Shown piece after piece: positions 12,091 through 22,213 of a stretch of DNA of 64,000 nucleotides (the stretch's first letter is position 1; every line of letters begins with the position of its first letter). The stretch is taken from the NCBI RefSeq assembly GCF_035994185.1, contig NZ_CP108538.1, positions 6,363,501-6,427,500 on the forward strand. Reading direction: 5' to 3'. The stretch comes from Streptomyces sp. NBC_01217. Lineage in GTDB: Bacteria; Actinomycetota; Actinomycetes; Streptomycetales; Streptomycetaceae. A program made the position numbers and the translations under genes. The notes beneath the pieces are model-generated. The model did not search any database. It saw nothing but the letters and a program-made list of their open reading frames with translations, and was not told the origin of the DNA.

Positions 12091-12319
12091 TTGCCCTGCT
12101 TCACCGCTGGAAGAGGCGGCGTCGTACGTGTGTACAAGTCGTCCACCCCCGTGTGGGTGATCCTTCCATCGGGGCTCAGTATGCGTCCTGGCGCATGACT
12201 ACACTTCTCCACACATACACGCGTCAGGCCCACAGTGTCGTGCGTCTTCCACGCGGCAAGCCCCTCCACCGCCTGCGGCCGTCGGGACGGCCGTCCGCAC
12301 TGGACCTGTGAGGACTCAC

Positions 12320-13912
12320 GTGAGCTCGAAACCTGTCGTACTCATCGCTGAAGAGCTGTCGCCTGCCACGGTTGACGCCCTGGGTCCGGATTTCGACATC
12401 CGGCACTGCAACGGCGCGGACCGCGCCGAGCTCCTCCCCGCGATCGCCGACGTCGATGCCATCCTGGTGCGCTCCGCCACCAAGGTCGACGCCGAGGCCA
12501 TCGCCGCCGCGAAGAAGCTGAGGGTCGTCGCCCGCGCGGGCGTCGGTCTGGACAACGTCGACGTCTCCGCCGCCACCAAGGCCGGCGTGATGGTCGTCAA
12601 CGCGCCGACGTCCAACATCGTGACCGCCGCCGAGCTGGCCTGCGGTCTGCTCGTCGCCACCGCGCGCAACATCCCGCAGGCCAACACCGCCCTCAAGAAC
12701 GGCGAGTGGAAGCGCTCCAAGTACACCGGCGTCGAGCTGAGCGAGAAGACCCTCGGTGTCGTCGGCCTCGGCCGCATCGGCGTGCTGGTCGCGCAGCGCA
12801 TGTCGGCCTTCGGCATGAAGATCGTCGCGTACGACCCCTATGTGCAGCCCGCGCGCGCCGCGCAGATGGGCGTCAAGCTCCTCACGCTGGACGAGCTCCT
12901 CGAAGTCGCCGACTTCATCACCGTGCACCTGCCCAAGACCCCCGAGACGCTCGGTCTGATCGGCGACGAGGCGCTGCACAAGGTGAAGCCCTCGGTGCGC
13001 ATCGTCAACGCCGCGCGCGGCGGCATCGTCGACGAGGCGGCGCTCGCCTCCGCCCTCAAGGAGGGCCGGGTCGCCGGCGCCGGTCTCGACGTGTACGCGA
13101 AGGAACCCTGCACGGACTCCCCGCTGTTCGAGTTCGACCAGGTCGTCTGCACCCCGCACCTCGGCGCCTCCACCGACGAGGCGCAGGAGAAGGCGGGCAT
13201 CGCGGTAGCCAAGTCCGTGCGCCTCGCCCTCGCCGGTGAGCTCGTGCCGGACGCGGTCAACGTCCAGGGCGGCGTCATCGCCGAGGACGTACGCCCCGGC
13301 CTGCCGCTCGCCGAGAAGCTCGGCCGGATCTTCACCGCGCTCGCGGGCGAGGTCGCGGTCCGCCTGGACGTCGAGGTGTACGGCGAGATCACCCAGCACG
13401 ACGTCAAGGTGCTCGAACTCTCCGCGCTCAAGGGCGTGTTCGAGGACGTGGTCGACGAGACCGTGTCGTATGTGAACGCCCCGCTCTTCGCGCAGGAGCG
13501 CGGTGTCGAGGTCCGCCTCACCACCAGCTCCGAGTCGCCCGACCACCGCAATGTGGTCACCGTCCGCGGCACGCTCTCCGGCGGCGAGGAGGTCGCGGTC
13601 TCCGGCACGCTGGCCGGACCCAAGCACCTCCAGAAGATCGTCGCCGTCGGCGAGTACGACGTGGATCTGGCCCTGGCCGACCACATGGTGGTGCTGCGTT
13701 ACGAGGACCGTCCCGGTGTCGTCGGCACGGTCGGCCGCATCCTCGGCGAGGCAGGACTGAACATCGCGGGCATGCAGGTCTCGCGGACGGACGCGGGCGG
13801 CGAGGCGCTGGTCGTCCTCACCGTCGACGACGACGTCCCGGCTTCGGTGCTCGCCGAGATCGCCACGGAGATCGGTGCGGCGTCGGCCCGTATGGTGAAC
13901 CTCTCCGACTGA
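12320..13912 (+). CDS. serA: D-3-phosphoglycerate dehydrogenase
   Basis: First step of serine synthesis: 3-phosphoglycerate to 3-phosphohydroxypyruvate with NAD. 530 residues from GTG 12320, the long type-I form. Order: substrate domain, NAD domain with VVGLGRIGVLVAQR (about 146), catalytic Arg in NAARGGIVDE and His in TPHLGAST. An intervening (ASB) domain follows, then a C-terminal ACT domain (about 450-530, VVLRYEDRPGVVGTVGRI) that senses serine in relatives. I chose 12320 rather than the upstream GTG 12308 because GAGGA lies 5-6 nt before it and the protein then starts with the familiar MSSKPVVLIAEELS. It has its own upstream region of about 230 bp, separated from ilvC by a terminator. Confidence 0.97.
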   Translation: MSSKPVVLIAEELSPATVDALGPDFDIRHCNGADRAELLPAIADVDAILVRSATKVDAEAIAAAKKLRVVARAGVGLDNVDVSAATKAGVMVVNAPTSNIVTAAELACGLLVATARNIPQANTALKNGEWKRSKYTGVELSEKTLGVVGLGRIGVLVAQRMSAFGMKIVAYDPYVQPARAAQMGVKLLTLDELLEVADFITVHLPKTPETLGLIGDEALHKVKPSVRIVNAARGGIVDEAALASALKEGRVAGAGLDVYAKEPCTDSPLFEFDQVVCTPHLGASTDEAQEKAGIAVAKSVRLALAGELVPDAVNVQGGVIAEDVRPGLPLAEKLGRIFTALAGEVAVRLDVEVYGEITQHDVKVLELSALKGVFEDVVDETVSYVNAPLFAQERGVEVRLTTSSESPDHRNVVTVRGTLSGGEEVAVSGTLAGPKHLQKIVAVGEYDVDLALADHMVVLRYEDRPGVVGTVGRILGEAGLNIAGMQVSRTDAGGEALVVLTVDDDVPASVLAEIATEIGAASARMVNLSD

Positions 13913-13929: not shown

Positions 13930-13980
13930 GTACCCGGCATCTAGACGTGCGTCTTACACGGACGTCTGGATGCCGGGTAC
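13930..13980. repeat. 19-bp inverted repeat between serA and tetR
   Basis: Arms 13930-13948 and 13962-13980 match with one mismatch, separated by 13 nt. The second arm ends 9 nt before the TetR start codon. It could be the serA terminator, the operator of the TetR gene, or both. The high AT content inside the loop and its position over the likely promoter favour an operator role. Confidence 0.75.
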
Positions 13981-13989
13981 GCTGCTGTC

Positions 13990-14583
13990 ATGGGACATCG
14001 TGAGGATCTGCTCGAAGGCGCCAAGCGCTGCCTGCTGGAGAAGGGGTACGCCCGGACGACGGCACGCGACATCGTGGCCGCCTCCGGTACGAACCTCGCC
14101 TCCATCGGCTACCACTACGGCTCCAAGGAGGCCCTGCTCAACCTCGCCTTCCTCAAGGTGACGGAGGAGTGGGGCGATGTGCTCACGAAGCAGCCGGACG
14201 AAGACGCGGCCGCGGGTGACGCCGAGGTGGAGAAGCCGCCGCTCGACCAGTTCCGCGACACCTGGGAGCGGGTGATCGCCGGCTACGAGCAGTCCCGGTC
14301 CGTCTGGCAGCTCCAGACGGAGGTCGTCTCCCGCATCGACTCCGACCCCGAACTGCAAAAGGCCCTGGCGGGCCCGCAGCGCGAGGGGCGAAACGGGCTC
14401 GCCCAGAGCATGCTCGGCATCGACCCGGAGACGGAACCGGAGAAGGCGCGGGTGGCCGGACTGTTCTGCCAGGCGCTGCTCGCGGGCGTGATGGTGCAGT
14501 GGCTGATGGACAGTGAATCCGCGCCGTCCGCACAGGACCTGACGGACGGCCTGAAGGCGGTGCTGGAGGGGCGGGCGCCGTAG
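13990..14583 (+). CDS. TetR-family transcriptional regulator
   Basis: A 197-residue repressor-type regulator. The N-terminal HTH is clear (REDLLEGAKRCLLEKGYARTT followed by ARDIVAASGTNLASIGYHYGSKEALLNLA). The C-terminal ligand domain (from about 60) carries TWERVIAGYEQSRSVWQLQ and a closing acidic/hydrophobic helix, similar to many Streptomyces TetR regulators of unknown ligand. It is followed by the rifamycin-resistance-like pair on the same strand, 157 bp later. The target is unknown; the inverted repeat just upstream suggests autoregulation. Confidence 0.9.
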   Translation: MGHREDLLEGAKRCLLEKGYARTTARDIVAASGTNLASIGYHYGSKEALLNLAFLKVTEEWGDVLTKQPDEDAAAGDAEVEKPPLDQFRDTWERVIAGYEQSRSVWQLQTEVVSRIDSDPELQKALAGPQREGRNGLAQSMLGIDPETEPEKARVAGLFCQALLAGVMVQWLMDSESAPSAQDLTDGLKAVLEGRAP

Positions 14584-14659
14584 TCGGCTCAGGGCGGATC
14601 GCACGACAGCGGGGAAGGAGGAGTACCCACTCCTTTCCACTCTCAACATATAGCGCATG

Positions 14660-14682
14660 GGGGGCCTTGCGGCAAGGCCCCC
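14660..14682. promoter_or_regulatory. Rifamycin-associated element (RAE)-like palindrome
   Basis: Perfect 23-bp palindrome: GGGGGCCTTGC, a central G, then GCAAGGCCCCC. The core CTTGCGGCAAG within G/C runs matches my memory of the RAE, the motif found upstream of rifampin-inducible resistance genes in actinobacteria. An AT-rich hexamer (TATAGC) lies just before it. It sits 58 nt upstream of the glycosyltransferase GTG, which fits a rifamycin-inducible promoter. Confidence 0.75.
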
Positions 14683-14740
14683 ATCGTGCCGCAGAATCAT
14701 CGGCCGAGGCCAGAACCTGCGGAAATGGGAGAGTCACGAA

Positions 14741-15982
14741 GTGCGTGTGCTGTTGTCTACGTATGGGTCGCGTGGGGACGTCGAACCGCTGGTGGGACTC
14801 GCGGTGCGGCTGCGGGCACTCGGCGCGCAGGTGCGGGTGTGCGCGCCGCCGGACGAGGAGTTCGCGAAGCTGCTGGCCGGTGTCGGCGTGGAGCTGGTGC
14901 CGGTCGGCCGGTCGGCGCGCGCGTTGACGATCGGGACGACGCCGCCGTCCGCCGCGGGCCTGCCCCAGCGAGCGGCCGAGCTGATCGCCGGTCAGTTCGA
15001 CGCGGTCACCACGGCGGCCGAGGGATGCGATGTGCTGGTGGCGACCGGCGTGATGCCGGCCGTGGCCGGCGCGCGGTCGGTGGCCGAGAAACTGGGCATC
15101 CGCTCCGTGTCCGTGACCTTCCAGCAGGTCACCCTGCCGTCCCCGCACCACGCGCCGCTGGCGTATCCGGGCCGGCCGTTCCCGCCGGAGGTGACCGACA
15201 ACCGGGTGCTGTGGGATCTGGACGCCCGGAGCATCAACGCGCTGTTCGGTGCGGCGCTCAACACGAACCGGGCGTCGATCGGTCTGCCACCGGTGGACAA
15301 CGTCCGCGACCATGTCATCGGTGACCGGCCGTGGCTCGCGACGGACCCGGTCCTGGACCCGTGGAAGGGGTCGGCGGACCTCGACGTCGTACAGACCGGC
15401 GCGTGGATCCTGCCGGACGAACGGACCCTCCCGGCCGAGTTGACGGCGTTCCTGGACGCCGGCGCACCACCCGTGTACGTGGGCTTCGGCAGCATGCCCA
15501 TGCGCACATCGACGGACGTCGCCCGGGTGGCCATCGAGGCGGTCCGCGCGCAGGGCCGCCGCGCACTCCTCGCCCACGGCTGGGCCGACCTGGCCCTGAT
15601 CGACGACCAGGACGACTGCTTCGTCGTCGGCGAGGTCAACCAGCAGGCACTGTTCGGCCGGGTGGCCGCCGTCGTGCACCACGGCGGCGCGGGCACCACG
15701 ACGACGGCCACCCGGGCCGGTGCGCCTCAGGTGGTGGTACCCCAGGCGACGGACCAGCCGTACTGGGCGGGCCGGGTGGCAGAGCTGGGCATCGGCGCGG
15801 CACACGACGGTCCGACTCCGACCGCCGAATCCCTGTCGGCCGCGCTCAGGACGGCCCTGACCCCCGGGACCCGCGCACGAGCGAGGGCCGTGGCCGGCAC
15901 GGTCCGCGCCGACGGGACGACCGTGGCCGCGAGGCTGCTGCTCGACATGGCCGACCGCGAAAGGCCATCGGTGTCCGCGTGA
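14741..15982 (+). CDS. rgt: UDP-glycosyltransferase, probable rifamycin glycosyltransferase
   Basis: A GT1/MGT-type glycosyltransferase of 413 residues. The N-terminal acceptor domain opens RVLLSTYGSRGDVEPLVGL. The C-terminal donor domain carries the nucleotide-sugar motif HHGGAGTTTTATRAGAPQVV (about residue 308), with ATDQPYWAGRVAELG following. Rgt enzymes inactivate rifamycins by glucosylating an ansa-bridge hydroxyl. Assignment to that subgroup rests on context: the RAE-like palindrome upstream and a HelR-like gene 75 bp downstream. From sequence alone it could be another sterol or natural-product glycosyltransferase. GTG 14741 was chosen because GGGAGAG lies upstream and the frame's earlier start (14657) would cover the palindrome. 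Confidence 0.8.
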   Translation: MRVLLSTYGSRGDVEPLVGLAVRLRALGAQVRVCAPPDEEFAKLLAGVGVELVPVGRSARALTIGTTPPSAAGLPQRAAELIAGQFDAVTTAAEGCDVLVATGVMPAVAGARSVAEKLGIRSVSVTFQQVTLPSPHHAPLAYPGRPFPPEVTDNRVLWDLDARSINALFGAALNTNRASIGLPPVDNVRDHVIGDRPWLATDPVLDPWKGSADLDVVQTGAWILPDERTLPAELTAFLDAGAPPVYVGFGSMPMRTSTDVARVAIEAVRAQGRRALLAHGWADLALIDDQDDCFVVGEVNQQALFGRVAAVVHHGGAGTTTTATRAGAPQVVVPQATDQPYWAGRVAELGIGAAHDGPTPTAESLSAALRTALTPGTRARARAVAGTVRADGTTVAARLLLDMADRERPSVSA

Positions 15983-16057
15983 ACCACGCGGGACCGCCAA
16001 GCCGGACGCCTTGCCGCGCGCAATGGTCGCAAGCGGCCTCAAAACGGAGCTGATGAC

Positions 16058-18211
16058 GTGAACCCCCTGACCACCAGTGCGTTCGGCCTTCCCGACCGCC
16101 TCTCCCACAAGGCGGACCCGGCGCTGATCGCCGGGGACGAGCAGCACTTCGCGGCCATCGCGGAGTGCCTTGAGCAGTCGATCGCCGAGCTGTCCGACCG
16201 CCTCGATGCCGAGCTCAAGTCGCCCGGCGGCGCAGGCCGGCAGGCGATGGACCGGGACGTGGAGGTCCACCGGCTGACCGCGCGCCTGCGCGCACTGCGC
16301 CGCTTCGGCCTGGACCTGTGCCTCGGACGCATGGTCGGCGCGGACGACCCCGAGCCCGTGTACGTCGGACGGCTCGGCCTCACGGACAGTACGGGGCGGC
16401 GGCTGCTGCTCGACTGGCGCTCCCCTGCGGCCGAGCCCTTCTTCGGAGCCACCCACGCCAACCCGACGGGTCTGGCGAGCCGCCGCAGGTATCGCTGGAC
16501 CGGTGGCCGGATCAGCGACTACTGGGACGAGGTGTTCACCTCGGACGGGTTCGCCGGGCACGCCGCGCTCGACGACCAGTCCGCCTTCATCGCCAGCCTG
16601 GGCAGCAACCGCTCGCCCCGGATGCGAGACGTGCTCGGCACCATCCAGGCCGACCAGGACGCCATCATCCGCGCGGGATCCCGCGGCGCTCTCGTCGTCG
16701 ACGGCGGTCCGGGTACGGGGAAGACCGTCGTCGCCCTGCACCGCTCCGCCTACCTCCTCTACTCCGACCCCCGCCTGAGTCACCGCCGGGGCGGCGTGCT
16801 GTTCGTCGGTCCGCACCGGCCCTACCTGGCCTACGTGGCCGACGTCCTGCCCAGCCTCGGGGAGGAGGGTGTGCAGACCTGCATCCTGCGGGACCTCGTC
16901 GCCGAGGGAGCCGCGGCAGCGATCGAGACCGCCCCGGACGTGGCCCGCCTGAAGTCGTCCGCGAACCTGGTGAACGCGATCGAGACGGCCGTCAGGTTCT
17001 ACGAGAAGCCGCCCGCCAGGGGGATGACGGTCACGACCCACTGGTCCGACATCCGGCTGAGCGCCGACGACTGGGCCGTGGCGTTCGAGGCGGCAGAACC
17101 CGGTACCCCGCACAACGAGGCGCGCGACCAGGTCTGGGAGGAGCTGCTCACCATCCTGGTGGACAAGCACGACGGTGACGCCCCGGCCGACCGGCTCCGC
17201 AAGTCGCTGCTGCAGAACAGGGAGTTGCTCACGGCCTTCGACCGTGCGTGGCCGCTGCTGGAAGCGGCGGACCTCGTCGCAGACCTGTGGTCCGTACCCG
17301 CCTACCTGCGGATGTGCGCTCCCTGGCTCGGCCCCGACGACGTGTCGAAACTGCAGCGTGAGGACGCCCGGGCCTGGACGGTGTCCGACCTGCCGCTCCT
17401 GGACGCGGCACGGCAGCGGCTCGGCGACCCGGAGGCGTCACTGCGCAGGCGTCGGCACGAGGCCACCCTCGCCGCCGAACGCGCGCGCCGGGCCGACGTC
17501 ATCGACGGCATCCTGCGGGACACCCAGATCGACGAGAGCGAAGGCGCGGTGGGGATGCTGCGCGGACGCGACCTGCAGGACGCCCTGATCGACGAGAGCG
17601 CACCGCCCGGCGCCGAACCGGACCTGCTCGCGGGCCCGTTCGCCCACATCGTCGTGGACGAGGCCCAGGAACTGACCGACGCGGAGTGGCAGATGCTGCT
17701 GCTGCGGTGCCCGTCCCGGAGTTTCACCATTGTCGGGGACCGTGCCCAGGCCAGGCACGGGTTCACGGAGTCGTGGCAGGAACGGCTCGACCGGGTCGGG
17801 CTCGACCGGATCGACCTGGCGTCCCTGAGCATCAACTACCGGACACCGGCGGGAATCATGGCGGAAGCCGAGCCGGTCATCCGGGCCGTGCTCCCGGACG
17901 CCAACGTGCCGACCTCCATCCGCAGCAGCGACGTCCCCGTCGTCCATGGATCCGCTTCGGATCTGAGCTCGGTCCTCGACACCTGGCTCGCCGCACATGC
18001 CGACGGGATCGCCTGCGTCATCGGCGATCCCGCGTTCCGGACGACGTCCCGTGTCCGGTCGCTGACCCCGGAGCTGTCGAAGGGACTTGAGTTCGACCTG
18101 GTCGTCCTCATCGACCCGGAGACGTTCGGCAAGGGCATCGAGGGAGCGGTCGACCGCTATGTCGCGATGACCCGGGCGACCCAGCAGCTCGTCATCCTCA
18201 CGAGCTCCTGA
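16058..18211 (+). CDS. helR: HelD-like RNA polymerase recycling ATPase, probable HelR
   Basis: A 717-residue UvrD/HelD-type SF1 ATPase that removes stalled RNA polymerase from DNA; HelR members also displace rifamycin and give resistance. An N-terminal coiled coil (about 25-90) is followed by GRLGLTDSTGRRLLLDWRSP, typical of the HelD secondary-channel region. Walker A is VVDGGPGTGKTVVALHRSAY (about 215). Walker B is HIVVDEAQELTDAEW (about 530). Late SF1 motifs are INYRTPAGI and RYVAMTRATQQLVIL. GTG 16058 with GGAG 10 nt upstream. It shares the direction and probably the RAE-controlled promoter of the glycosyltransferase; the 75-bp gap holds no strong hairpin. The HelR subtype is inferred from context. 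Confidence 0.85.
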   Translation: MNPLTTSAFGLPDRLSHKADPALIAGDEQHFAAIAECLEQSIAELSDRLDAELKSPGGAGRQAMDRDVEVHRLTARLRALRRFGLDLCLGRMVGADDPEPVYVGRLGLTDSTGRRLLLDWRSPAAEPFFGATHANPTGLASRRRYRWTGGRISDYWDEVFTSDGFAGHAALDDQSAFIASLGSNRSPRMRDVLGTIQADQDAIIRAGSRGALVVDGGPGTGKTVVALHRSAYLLYSDPRLSHRRGGVLFVGPHRPYLAYVADVLPSLGEEGVQTCILRDLVAEGAAAAIETAPDVARLKSSANLVNAIETAVRFYEKPPARGMTVTTHWSDIRLSADDWAVAFEAAEPGTPHNEARDQVWEELLTILVDKHDGDAPADRLRKSLLQNRELLTAFDRAWPLLEAADLVADLWSVPAYLRMCAPWLGPDDVSKLQREDARAWTVSDLPLLDAARQRLGDPEASLRRRRHEATLAAERARRADVIDGILRDTQIDESEGAVGMLRGRDLQDALIDESAPPGAEPDLLAGPFAHIVVDEAQELTDAEWQMLLLRCPSRSFTIVGDRAQARHGFTESWQERLDRVGLDRIDLASLSINYRTPAGIMAEAEPVIRAVLPDANVPTSIRSSDVPVVHGSASDLSSVLDTWLAAHADGIACVIGDPAFRTTSRVRSLTPELSKGLEFDLVVLIDPETFGKGIEGAVDRYVAMTRATQQLVILTSS

Positions 18212-18231
18212 CGCCGGATCCTGGAGCGGGC

Positions 18232-19374
18232 TCAGAGGCGGGCGCTCTTGAGTGCCATGTGCAGCAGCAGCCGGTCCTCGCCGTCGTTCAGGTCGAGGCC
18301 GGTGAGCTGCTGGACCCGGGAGATCCGGTAGTAGAGCGTCTGGCGGTGGATGCCGAGTGCGGCGGCCGTGCGGGACGCCTGGCCCGCGCAGTCGAGGAAC
18401 ACCTCGGCGGTGCGGGCCAGCTCCTTGTTCGGCGGGGTGAGCAGGGCGCGGACCGCGGGGTCCGCGGTCGCCTCCGCGGGGAGCGCGGTCAGCAGCCGGT
18501 ACGGGCCGATCGCCGACCAGTTCGCGACCGGGCCGAAGCGGGACTCGGCCGCCGCGGCGCGGGCCGCGGCCGACGCCTCCTGCCAGGCCTCGGCCAGGTC
18601 CGCCAGGCCGCGGCGGGGCACCCCGACCCCGGCGGTGGCGCCCCGGACCGCGGTGGCGCGCAGCCGGTCCGCCGCGGTGAGCGCCGGATCGAGGACATCG
18701 GCGGAGCGCAGCCGGACCAGCGCGGCCAGCGAGGGGGGACCGGCGGCCCCGGGGGCCGGGAGCGAGGTCAGGGCCGACGCCGCCGAGACCGTACGGGCCG
18801 ACGGCGGATCGTCGGTCCACGGGGTCACGCACACCACCGCGTGCAGTCCCTCCGCGTCCCGGCCCAGCGCCTCGTGCAGCGCGGCCACCGCCATGTCGCG
18901 CTGCCAGCCCCGCCCGGCGGTGAGGACCGCGCCGAACTCCCGGGACAGATCCGTACCGGCCCGCGCCTCGTCTGACAGCAGCCCCCCGATCCGGGTCGCC
19001 GCCTCCATCGCCGCCTTCAGCTGCTCGTCGGTGGGCCCGGGGTCGGCGTCGAGCAGCCATACGTAACCGAGGACGACACCCCGATGGCGTACCGGCAGAC
19101 AGATACGGCCGCGGAACACCCCGGCCTCCGGGGCGGCCGGGATGCGGACCGGGCCGGTGGCGCGGGCGATGCCGAAGCCCTCGAACCAGGCGCGGACCGC
19201 GGGCGTGGAGCGCCTGGTGAGGATCGAGCGGGTGCGGACCGGGTCCATCGCCGTGTCGTCGTCGCTGTCGTGGGCACCGAAGGCGACCAGGCCGAAATCC
19301 CGGTTCTCCAGCGTCGCGGGGGCGCCGAGCAGCCCGGAGATCTCGTCGACCAGCTCCTGGTAATCGCCCTTCAC
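18232..19374 (-). CDS. PucR/CdaR-type regulator of proline catabolism
   Basis: A 380-residue regulator. The N-terminal half is a GAF-like sensory domain ([18 protein letters not shown]). The C-terminus is a PucR-type HTH ([39 protein letters not shown], shown here as part of a longer motif at about 325-365). It is divergent from proline dehydrogenase, with a 16-bp palindrome between them. PucR regulators in this position activate proline oxidation genes in response to proline; that role is inferred from position. The stop lies 20 bp from the convergent helR stop. Confidence 0.88.
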
Positions 19375-20581: not shown

Positions 20582-22213
20582 ATGGACGCTGTCACCCAGG
20601 TCCCCGCGCCGGTCAACGAGCCGGTCCACTCCTACGCCCCGGGTTCTCCCGAGCGCGCCCGCCTGGAGGCGAAGCTCAAGGAGCTCAGCCAGAACCCGAT
20701 CGACCTTCCGATGACCATCGGCGGCGAGAAGCGGATGGGCGGCGGCGAGCGCTTCGACGTCGTACAGCCGCACAACCACAAGGCCGTCATCGGTACGTTC
20801 GCCGCTGCCACCCAGCAGGACGCCCAGGACGCGATCGACGCCGCGCTGGCCGCCGCCCCGGCCTGGCGCGCGATGTCCTTCGACGACCGCGCCGCGATCA
20901 TCCTGCGCGCCGCCGAGCTGCTGTCCGGCCCCTGGCGCGAGACGCTGGCCGCGTCCACGATGCTCGGCCAGTCGAAGACCGTCCAGCAGGCCGAGATCGA
21001 CACCCCCTGTGAGCTCGTCGACTTCTGGCGCTTCAACGTGCACTACGCGCGCCAGATCCTGGCCGAGCAGCCCCCGGCGAACTCGCCGGGCGTGTGGAAC
21101 CGCATGGACCACCGCCCGCTGGAGGGCTTCGTCTACGCGATCACGCCGTTCAACTTCACTGCCATCGCGGGCAACCTGCCCACCGCCCCCGCCCTCATGG
21201 GCAACGTCGTGGTGTGGAAGCCGTCCCCCACGCAGACCCACTCCGCCGTGCTGCTGATGCAGCTCCTGGAGGAGGCCGGGCTGCCCAAGGGCGTCATCAA
21301 CCTGGTGACCGGTGACGGCATCGCCGTCTCCGAGGTGGCCCTGAACCACCGCGACCTGGCCGGCATCCACTTCACCGGCTCGACCCCCACCTTCCAGCAC
21401 CTGTGGAAGACGGTCGGCACCAACATCGCCAACTACCGCACCTACCCGCGGCTCGTCGGCGAGACCGGCGGCAAGGACTTCGTCGTCGCCCACCCGTCGG
21501 CCGACCACGCCGTCCTGAAGACCGCGCTGACCCGTGGCTCCTTCGAGTACCAGGGACAGAAGTGCTCGGCGTCCTCCCGCGCGTACGTCCCGGCCTCCAT
21601 CTGGAACTCCGGTTTCAAGGAGAAGTTCGCCGCCGAGGTCGACTCCATCACCATGGGTGACGTCACCGACCTGTCGAACTTCATCGGTGCCGTCATCGAC
21701 GAGCGCGCGTTCGCCAAGAACAAGGCCGCGATCGACCGAGCCAAGTCCGACCCGGCCTGCACGGTCGTCGCGGGCGGCACGTACGACGACTCGGTGGGCT
21801 ACTTCGTCCGCCCGACCGTCATCGAGTGCAGCGACCCCTCGAACGAGGTCTTCACGACCGAGTACTTCGGCCCGATCCTCGCCGTGCACGTCTACGAGGA
21901 CGACAAGTACGACGAGATGCTGGAGCAGATGGAGTCGGTCTCCGACTACGCGCTGACCGGCTCGGTCATCTCGAACGACCGCGCCGCGGCCGCGCACACG
22001 ATGGAGAAGCTCCGCTACGCGGCGGGCAACTTCTACATCAACGACAAGTCGACCGGTGCCGTCGTCGGCCAGCAGCCCTTCGGCGGCGGCCGTGCCTCGG
22101 GCACGAACGACAAGGCGGGCGCCCCGCAGAACCTGCAGCGCTGGACGCTGACCCGCGCCATCAAGGAGACGCTGGTCCCGCCGACCGACTACACCTACCC
22201 CCACCAGGGCTGA
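20582..22213 (+). CDS. pruA: L-glutamate gamma-semialdehyde dehydrogenase (P5C dehydrogenase)
   Basis: Second step of proline catabolism: glutamate semialdehyde to glutamate with NAD. 543 residues, the standard length. The catalytic Glu lies in LVGETGGKDFVV (about residue 293) and the catalytic Cys in YQGQKCSASSRAYVP (about 327). The NAD loop is ITPFNFTAIAGNLPTAPALM, and the C-terminal part holds QQPFGGGRASGTNDKAG. ATG preceded by AAGGAGACAAGG. Two hairpins follow the stop, ending the transcript against the convergent SpoIIE-type gene. Confidence 0.97.
   Translation: MDAVTQVPAPVNEPVHSYAPGSPERARLEAKLKELSQNPIDLPMTIGGEKRMGGGERFDVVQPHNHKAVIGTFAAATQQDAQDAIDAALAAAPAWRAMSFDDRAAIILRAAELLSGPWRETLAASTMLGQSKTVQQAEIDTPCELVDFWRFNVHYARQILAEQPPANSPGVWNRMDHRPLEGFVYAITPFNFTAIAGNLPTAPALMGNVVVWKPSPTQTHSAVLLMQLLEEAGLPKGVINLVTGDGIAVSEVALNHRDLAGIHFTGSTPTFQHLWKTVGTNIANYRTYPRLVGETGGKDFVVAHPSADHAVLKTALTRGSFEYQGQKCSASSRAYVPASIWNSGFKEKFAAEVDSITMGDVTDLSNFIGAVIDERAFAKNKAAIDRAKSDPACTVVAGGTYDDSVGYFVRPTVIECSDPSNEVFTTEYFGPILAVHVYEDDKYDEMLEQMESVSDYALTGSVISNDRAAAAHTMEKLRYAAGNFYINDKSTGAVVGQQPFGGGRASGTNDKAGAPQNLQRWTLTRAIKETLVPPTDYTYPHQG

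Follow-up and report, generated by a model that had tools for sequence, protein, structure and literature searches.

How rifamycins switch on resistance in actinobacteria is the question raised by a locus of Streptomyces sp. NBC_01217, in which a perfect palindrome precedes a glycosyltransferase gene and a gene for a HelD-type ATPase. The locus lies in a stretch of 64,000 nucleotides (nt), referred to here as the window (contig NZ_CP108538.1, positions 6,363,501 to 6,427,500). An earlier note on this DNA had read it as a rifamycin-inducible resistance operon headed by a rifamycin-associated element (RAE). RAE, Rgt and HelR are already known. Our comparisons make it probable that the locus is a rifamycin-inducible operon joining drug inactivation to target protection, and that two divergent promoters share its RAE as their centre. 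The same two-sided geometry is fixed before five families of resistance genes (rgt, helR, rox, rph and arr), which makes the question of how rifamycins are sensed through the RAE specifically testable.

The palindrome is exact, as the earlier note had it: two 11-nt arms are exact reverse complements around one central base, and 58 nt separate its last base from the GTG start codon (14741) of the glycosyltransferase gene (Table 1). We took the RAE to be a palindrome of about 19 bp with the core CTTGCNGCAAG, the core being defined by its recurrence before known RAE genes. A genome-wide exact search placed this 11-bp core at three positions in the 9.03-Mb genome, namely the rgt-helR site, a true RAE before rph and an amylase-promoter repeat without RAE flanks. 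Context upholds the likeness to an RAE that the note had seen: behind the palindrome lie an Rgt-like glycosyltransferase and HelR, so that it stands upstream of rifamycin resistance genes, and the same core and flanks are met again ahead of rgt, helR, rox, rph and arr. The rox genes behind an RAE exceed the NF033145 cut-off in 3 of 3 examined cases and the arr genes that of NF033144 in 4 of 4, and rph was also found behind an identical core. When 30 genus loci were drawn by pattern, 27 had extended RAE flanks in common and three were chance matches. Counts of the bare pattern CTTGCNGCAAGNCC were discarded, as it matches 132 of 150 genomes and its reversed control was about equally common in many.

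Table 1 Features of the rgt-helR locus and its neighbours (window coordinates)
Feature	Position	Strand	Remarks
RAE, perfect 23-bp palindrome	14660..14682	.	Arm comparison, genome core search
RAE core CTTGCGGCAAG	14666..14676	.	Contains the proposed overlapping -35 hexamers; -35 role putative
TTGCGG, proposed gene-ward -35	14667-14672	+	Within RAE core
TTGCCG, proposed leftward -35	14670-14675	-	Within RAE core
Leftward -10-like hexamer TATGTT (predicted)	14645..14650	-	15 nt from RAE core
Gene-ward -10-like hexamer CAGAAT (predicted)	14692..14697	+	15 nt after RAE core
Hairpin H1 at predicted 5' end of leftward RNA	14613..14638	-	Predicted fold; 2-nt bulge, no U-tract
Rgt-like GT1 glycosyltransferase	14741..15982	+	413 aa; NF000354 545 bits, cut-off 800
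HelR, class II HelD-type ATPase	16058..18211	+	717 aa; NF041254 1281 bits, cut-off 750; acidic PCh-loop tip near residue 491
Phosphoglycerate dehydrogenase (serA)	12308-13912		TIGR01327 626 bits, cut-off 454
TetR gene	13990-14583	+	Just upstream of operon
PucR-type regulator	18232-19374	-	Just downstream of operon; PF13556 80 bits
Proline dehydrogenase-like gene			NF045947 213 bits, below 500 cut-off
1-Pyrroline-5-carboxylate (P5C) dehydrogenase	20582-22213		TIGR01236 809 bits, cut-off 614

The -10 pattern of Streptomyces promoters is TANNNT. Of 154 distinct RAE sites selected in part by their flanks, 146 have a TATAGC whose first base lies exactly 17 nt ahead of the core, and 136 have CA[GC]AAT exactly 15 nt past it. 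Because a choice by flanks is circular, sites were re-chosen by downstream coding homology alone. The resulting set holds 178 sites (96 rgt, 36 helR, 32 rox and 14 rph; identical sites merged, the window's own excluded); the genus sample and the named loci contributed 154 of them, and the other 24 come from as many of 30 class-wide loci (L204, L206, L220, L222, L224 and L227 were not kept); 40 further genus sites were taken from among the matches listed. At 173 of the 178 sites (150/154 and 23/24), the minus strand carries TANNNT at a distance of exactly 15 nt on the upstream side of the core. On the plus strand, YANNNT, nearly always CANAAT, stands exactly 15 nt downstream in 172 (151/154 and 21/24), and both hexamers occupy these places together in 147/154 and 21/24. 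At no other offset from 6 to 30 do these motifs, read in these directions, exceed 2%; for comparison, TANNNT on the plus strand upstream is present in 10% and 29% at offset 16, which overlaps. Both hexamers were also kept in 6 of 6 rgt loci with one changed core base.

A class-wide search matched 78 of 197 genomes, and 20 places not yet sampled were drawn from it, excluding one-strand-only matches and extra sites of genomes already sampled. By homology, 16 of these places precede helR, rox, rph or rgt, with the left hexamer present in 16 of 16 and the right one in 15 of 16. Behind each of the remaining four lies arr, and the hexamers fit in all four, but the direction was there chosen by the hexamers themselves.

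The left element is best read as pointing leftward, because the plus-strand letters TATAGC often change outside Streptomyces, where the leftward T1, A2 and T6 stay. TATAGC as a gene-ward -10 was rejected on the same ground: other families do not conserve it, whereas they do conserve TANNNT on the minus strand. Over the 178 sites, the leftward hexamer has T1 in 175, A2 in 175 and T6 in 176, with position 3 free; the first position of the gene-ward hexamer is C in 172, as though this element were being held weak. In 149 of the 178 sites the core has G at its centre and so reads TTGCCG leftward and TTGCGG gene-ward. A further sign of a leftward RNA is an A-rich tract upstream (0.48 versus 0.12).

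The predicted leftward RNA has a structure of its own. We placed its start (+1) 6 nt past the leftward hexamer, which we take to be the usual distance from a -10 element. Predicted folds then pair the first base at 146 of 154 sites (class-wide 17 of 24), and the fold energy falls below that of mononucleotide shuffles (mean z -2.2 and, class-wide, -1.6), versus mean z values of +0.8 and +0.5 for the gene-ward RNA. The 10 nt past the hairpin are 55% U in the 154 sites and 32% class-wide, and at least half U in 103/154 and 10/24. A stem with at least 7 of 9 pairs forms at 132 of 154 leftward starts, versus 3 at the gene-ward start and 12 farther left. Six of the nine stem pairs vary on both sides, a compensatory pattern. 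Re-dealing the arms drops the mean pairing from 6.97 to 5.72 (standard deviation 0.12, maximum 6.08 in 1000; 59 distinct arm pairs), the observed value being inflated because the second arm was selected for best pairing and the statistic ignoring relatedness. No known RNA at an RAE is named in the part of PMC11077062 that was available (12 of 23 places), and the available main text of PMC13246000 names neither HelR nor RAE. Neither the two-sided -10 geometry nor the leftward hairpin was found in the open-licence literature, a coverage outside which the primary RAE and HelR papers lie.

We infer from these features a promoter switch. Each strand of the palindromic core would supply a TTGCNG hexamer resembling a -35 element, with a -10-like hexamer 15 nt off each side, the gene-ward one weak (CANAAT) and the leftward one closer to consensus (TANNTT). 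Divergent promoters with one shared centre should bind one polymerase at a time. Without drug, RNA polymerase would favour the leftward promoter and thereby occlude the gene-ward one, making an RNA that starts with the hairpin and, in many relatives, would end in a U-tract. A rifamycin would shift the balance toward the gene-ward promoter in the RAE; from the rgt-helR message made there, the Rgt-like glycosyltransferase would disable the drug and HelR would free the polymerase. Either the polymerase itself or a palindrome-bound protein could be the sensor. For mycobacterial helD, the parts of PMC10719064 at hand describe a mapped promoter whose -35 is overlapped by the RAE, in agreement with the gene-ward promoter proposed here.

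Several points weigh against such a switch. A consensus scanner, which disallows 19-nt spacers, reported neither promoter nor terminator at the window site. The window's own H1 carries a bulge and lacks the U-tract, hairpin and U-tract are both weaker outside Streptomyces (the 17/24 and 10/24 above), the mismatch letters in the stem (A.C 24, G.T 21) do not tell which strand carries the hairpin, and the four arr sites have no clear hairpin starting at +1. A second gene-ward promoter of M. smegmatis helD reportedly starts upstream of the RAE (PMC10719064, in part) and is not explained by the two-sided geometry, and in B. subtilis induction was lost once the two helD promoters had been moved into overlap (PMC12802891, in part). 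The glycosyltransferase, finally, falls short of the Rgt cut-off (545 versus 800 bits).

The B. subtilis case bears on what the sensor might be. As described in the available portion of PMC12802891, the rifampicin alarm of that species (helD, pps) is a drug-inducible arrangement in which a stronger antisense promoter opposes a weaker sense one. The window would resemble it, with a helD or rifampicin-modifying gene behind a sense promoter that the hexamers suggest to be the weaker. The B. subtilis promoters, according to the same source, are convergent, their starts 39 bp apart, and lack an RAE, whereas the window's hexamers point apart, so that its promoters would be divergent with -35 elements overlapping in the palindrome. 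The RAE might work without a dedicated drug-binding regulator, RNA polymerase itself being the rifamycin sensor: the stronger leftward promoter would make futile hairpin RNA and occupy the shared -35 region, and a drug-arrested polymerase would end the futile cycle and let the weak gene-ward promoter gain. Because overlap destroys sensing in B. subtilis, which counts against a direct copy of the alarm, we regard this polymerase-only form of the switch as doubtful. If true, it would make the RAE an independent counterpart of the convergent alarm, serving rgt, helR, rox, rph and arr across actinobacteria.

About as doubtful, and if anything slightly more so, is that the RAE is a plain operator for a dimeric rifamycin-responsive regulator acting on a single gene-ward promoter. 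Other roles would then fall to the left hexamer and the hairpin, for example as a second regulator contact or a barrier against antisense transcription. The GGGG/CCCC arms of the palindrome extend past the proposed -35 hexamers, which speaks for an operator, as do the accounts of a 2022 review and a 2026 paper, in whose available parts the RAE is a 19-bp palindrome acted on by an unknown factor. Loss of half the RAE also reportedly abolished induction of M. abscessus helR (PMC10719064, in part). An operator leaves unexplained, however, why the left hexamer has the letters of a -10 element at the counts given above, why its distance of 15 nt equals that of the right one, and why a hairpin unneeded for DNA contact changes on both sides. 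Two divergent promoters sharing the RAE remain our preferred reading.

The two genes behind the RAE are, as had been noted, a GT1 glycosyltransferase and a HelD-type ATPase on one strand; this is the plus strand, and 75 nt separate them. The assignment of the first to Rgt stands in part: its best NCBIfam model is Rgt, with the next family at 68 bits, but the strict cut-off is missed. All 73 Rgt-model matches listed at E <= 1e-100 in 150 genus genomes also fall below that cut-off, which therefore does not separate function here, and 'Rgt-like' is the safe name. That shortfall could be taken to favour a role in natural-product (vancomycin-type) chemistry, with HelR merely recycling polymerase and the neighbourhood incidental, as could the closest solved structures by sequence (GtfB, GtfA and GtfD, 463 to 400 bits) and the annotation of some relatives by their sources as vancomycin aglycone glucosyltransferase. 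We consider this very improbable, given that the RAE stands ahead of the glycosyltransferase at a nearly constant distance across loci, that it precedes rph, rox, arr and helR elsewhere, and that the pair with HelR occurs in many genera and, in four loci, with a second HelD lineage. The enzyme should inactivate rifamycins.

The identification of the ATPase as HelR proved sound, its score lying well above the curated cut-off, and it is the sole protein to pass that cut-off among nine HelR-model matches in the genome. The PCh-loop is present with its acidic tip kept: the aligned loop reads IDESEG, where the other rows are mostly DDDGEG-like (54 rows aligned, 45 printed). The tip of M. smegmatis HelD, which the window protein matches with 342 bits, is likewise acidic (482-DDED-485) and reaches the RNA polymerase active site, as the available part of PMC7749160 describes. 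With the class II HelD and HelR proteins of M. smegmatis, M. abscessus and S. venezuelae, the window HelR has in common the domain order, the acidic PCh-loop tip and the curated model; unlike them, it sits downstream of rgt without an RAE of its own. In S. venezuelae, rox and helR are both RAE-linked. It should displace rifamycin from RNA polymerase. The strain's rpoB region looks canonical when set against what we take to be the resistance region.

The rgt-helR pairing is, across the genomes compared, not peculiar to this strain and at least widespread. Of 294 relatives found, the best 80 make up the named rgt loci; 53 of these have an RAE, rgt and a helR or helD gene directly downstream, 21 an RAE without partner, and 6 neither RAE nor partner; the pair recurs in many genera. 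When one changed base is tolerated on each side of the core centre, an RAE is present in 99 of 110 glycosyltransferase rows (109 loci and the window); 65 of these 99 are paired, as against 0 of the 11 without. In the 150 genus genomes, an Rgt-like match occurs in 58 (E <= 1e-100), HelR in 99 (E <= 1e-200) and both in 48, and the two genes are adjacent in 29. The gap between rgt and its partner is 14-455 nt in the 53 paired named loci and contains no exact RAE core in any of them, which fits one transcript. In 4 of the 53 (L039, L042, L073 and L092; two from Nocardia, the others from Solihabitans and Kutzneria), the partner is an M. smegmatis-type HelD (NF041465 1368-1406 bits, cut-off 1051), and the rgt partnership thus exists with two HelD lineages. 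The recurrent pair points to drug inactivation and target protection being maintained as one unit, with either lineage as partner. Core, gene kinds and flanking hexamers are the same as those of other RAE-controlled actinobacterial genes (rgt, rox, rph, arr and helR); compared with those in print, the window has two gene kinds behind one RAE. We did not find the pair in the open-licence literature, and the primary papers outside that coverage may well show it.

The operon lies, as had been observed, between serine and proline genes: phosphoglycerate dehydrogenase on one side, a proline dehydrogenase-like gene and P5C dehydrogenase on the other. Two regulator genes that the earlier note had not mentioned flank it directly (Table 1). 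Control by the adjacent TetR protein, whose gene lies 157 nt upstream of the glycosyltransferase on the same strand, was rejected as scarcely credible, because no TetR homologue (E <= 1e-10) occurs in the flanks (<=6 kb) of any of the 80 rgt loci and because the relatives G015 and G004 carry the serA-to-TetR stretch without the operon beside it.

Judged by its placement in relatives, the rgt-helR block is a unit that moves. Five of them (G006, G016, G011, G018 and G001) have a matching block whose ends correspond to window positions 14549-14630 and 18177-18212, and their serA and PucR-type matches sit on different contigs. In G015 and G004, the TetR-side match is separated from the PucR-type gene by about 2.4-2.5 kb of other DNA. 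The window's serA and PucR-type proteins, like TetR, have no match at the same threshold in the flanks of the 80 loci. The only match of any neighbour there is a distant aldehyde dehydrogenase near rgt (L069 8682-10013), 28% identical to the window's P5C dehydrogenase. Between serA and the TetR gene (window 13932-13975) lies a long imperfect inverted repeat, a possible TetR operator or serA terminator, for which Rfam gave one sub-threshold miRNA match.

Two further RAE copies in the genome bear traces of rgt. The second (about C1:8687027) has the same leader and precedes a short 5' remnant of rgt followed by rph, which is intact (L003/L004 5312-7909; NF041857 1645 bits, cut-off 999); an IS5-like transposase gene lies about 3 kb upstream. 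The third is decayed (L236, about 1045-1210; C1:5025743-5025921), with core and leftward hexamer damaged, the hairpin intact and an rgt-like remnant; for the two nearest downstream reading frames there is no NCBIfam match, nor a Pfam match above cut-off. An rgt remnant (E <= 1e-4) occurs at 7 of 82 RAE sites before helR, rph or rox, suggesting that some of these genes inherited an rgt promoter or lost a preceding rgt.

At three class-wide loci (L220, L222 and L224), both hexamers are present and a DrrA-like ABC transporter ATPase stands behind the RAE. These are candidate components of a rifamycin-inducible exporter, a kind not among the RAE genes found in the open-licence literature; on TIGR01188, two of the ATPases score 326 and 338 bits, above the cut-off of 312, and one scores 270, below it.

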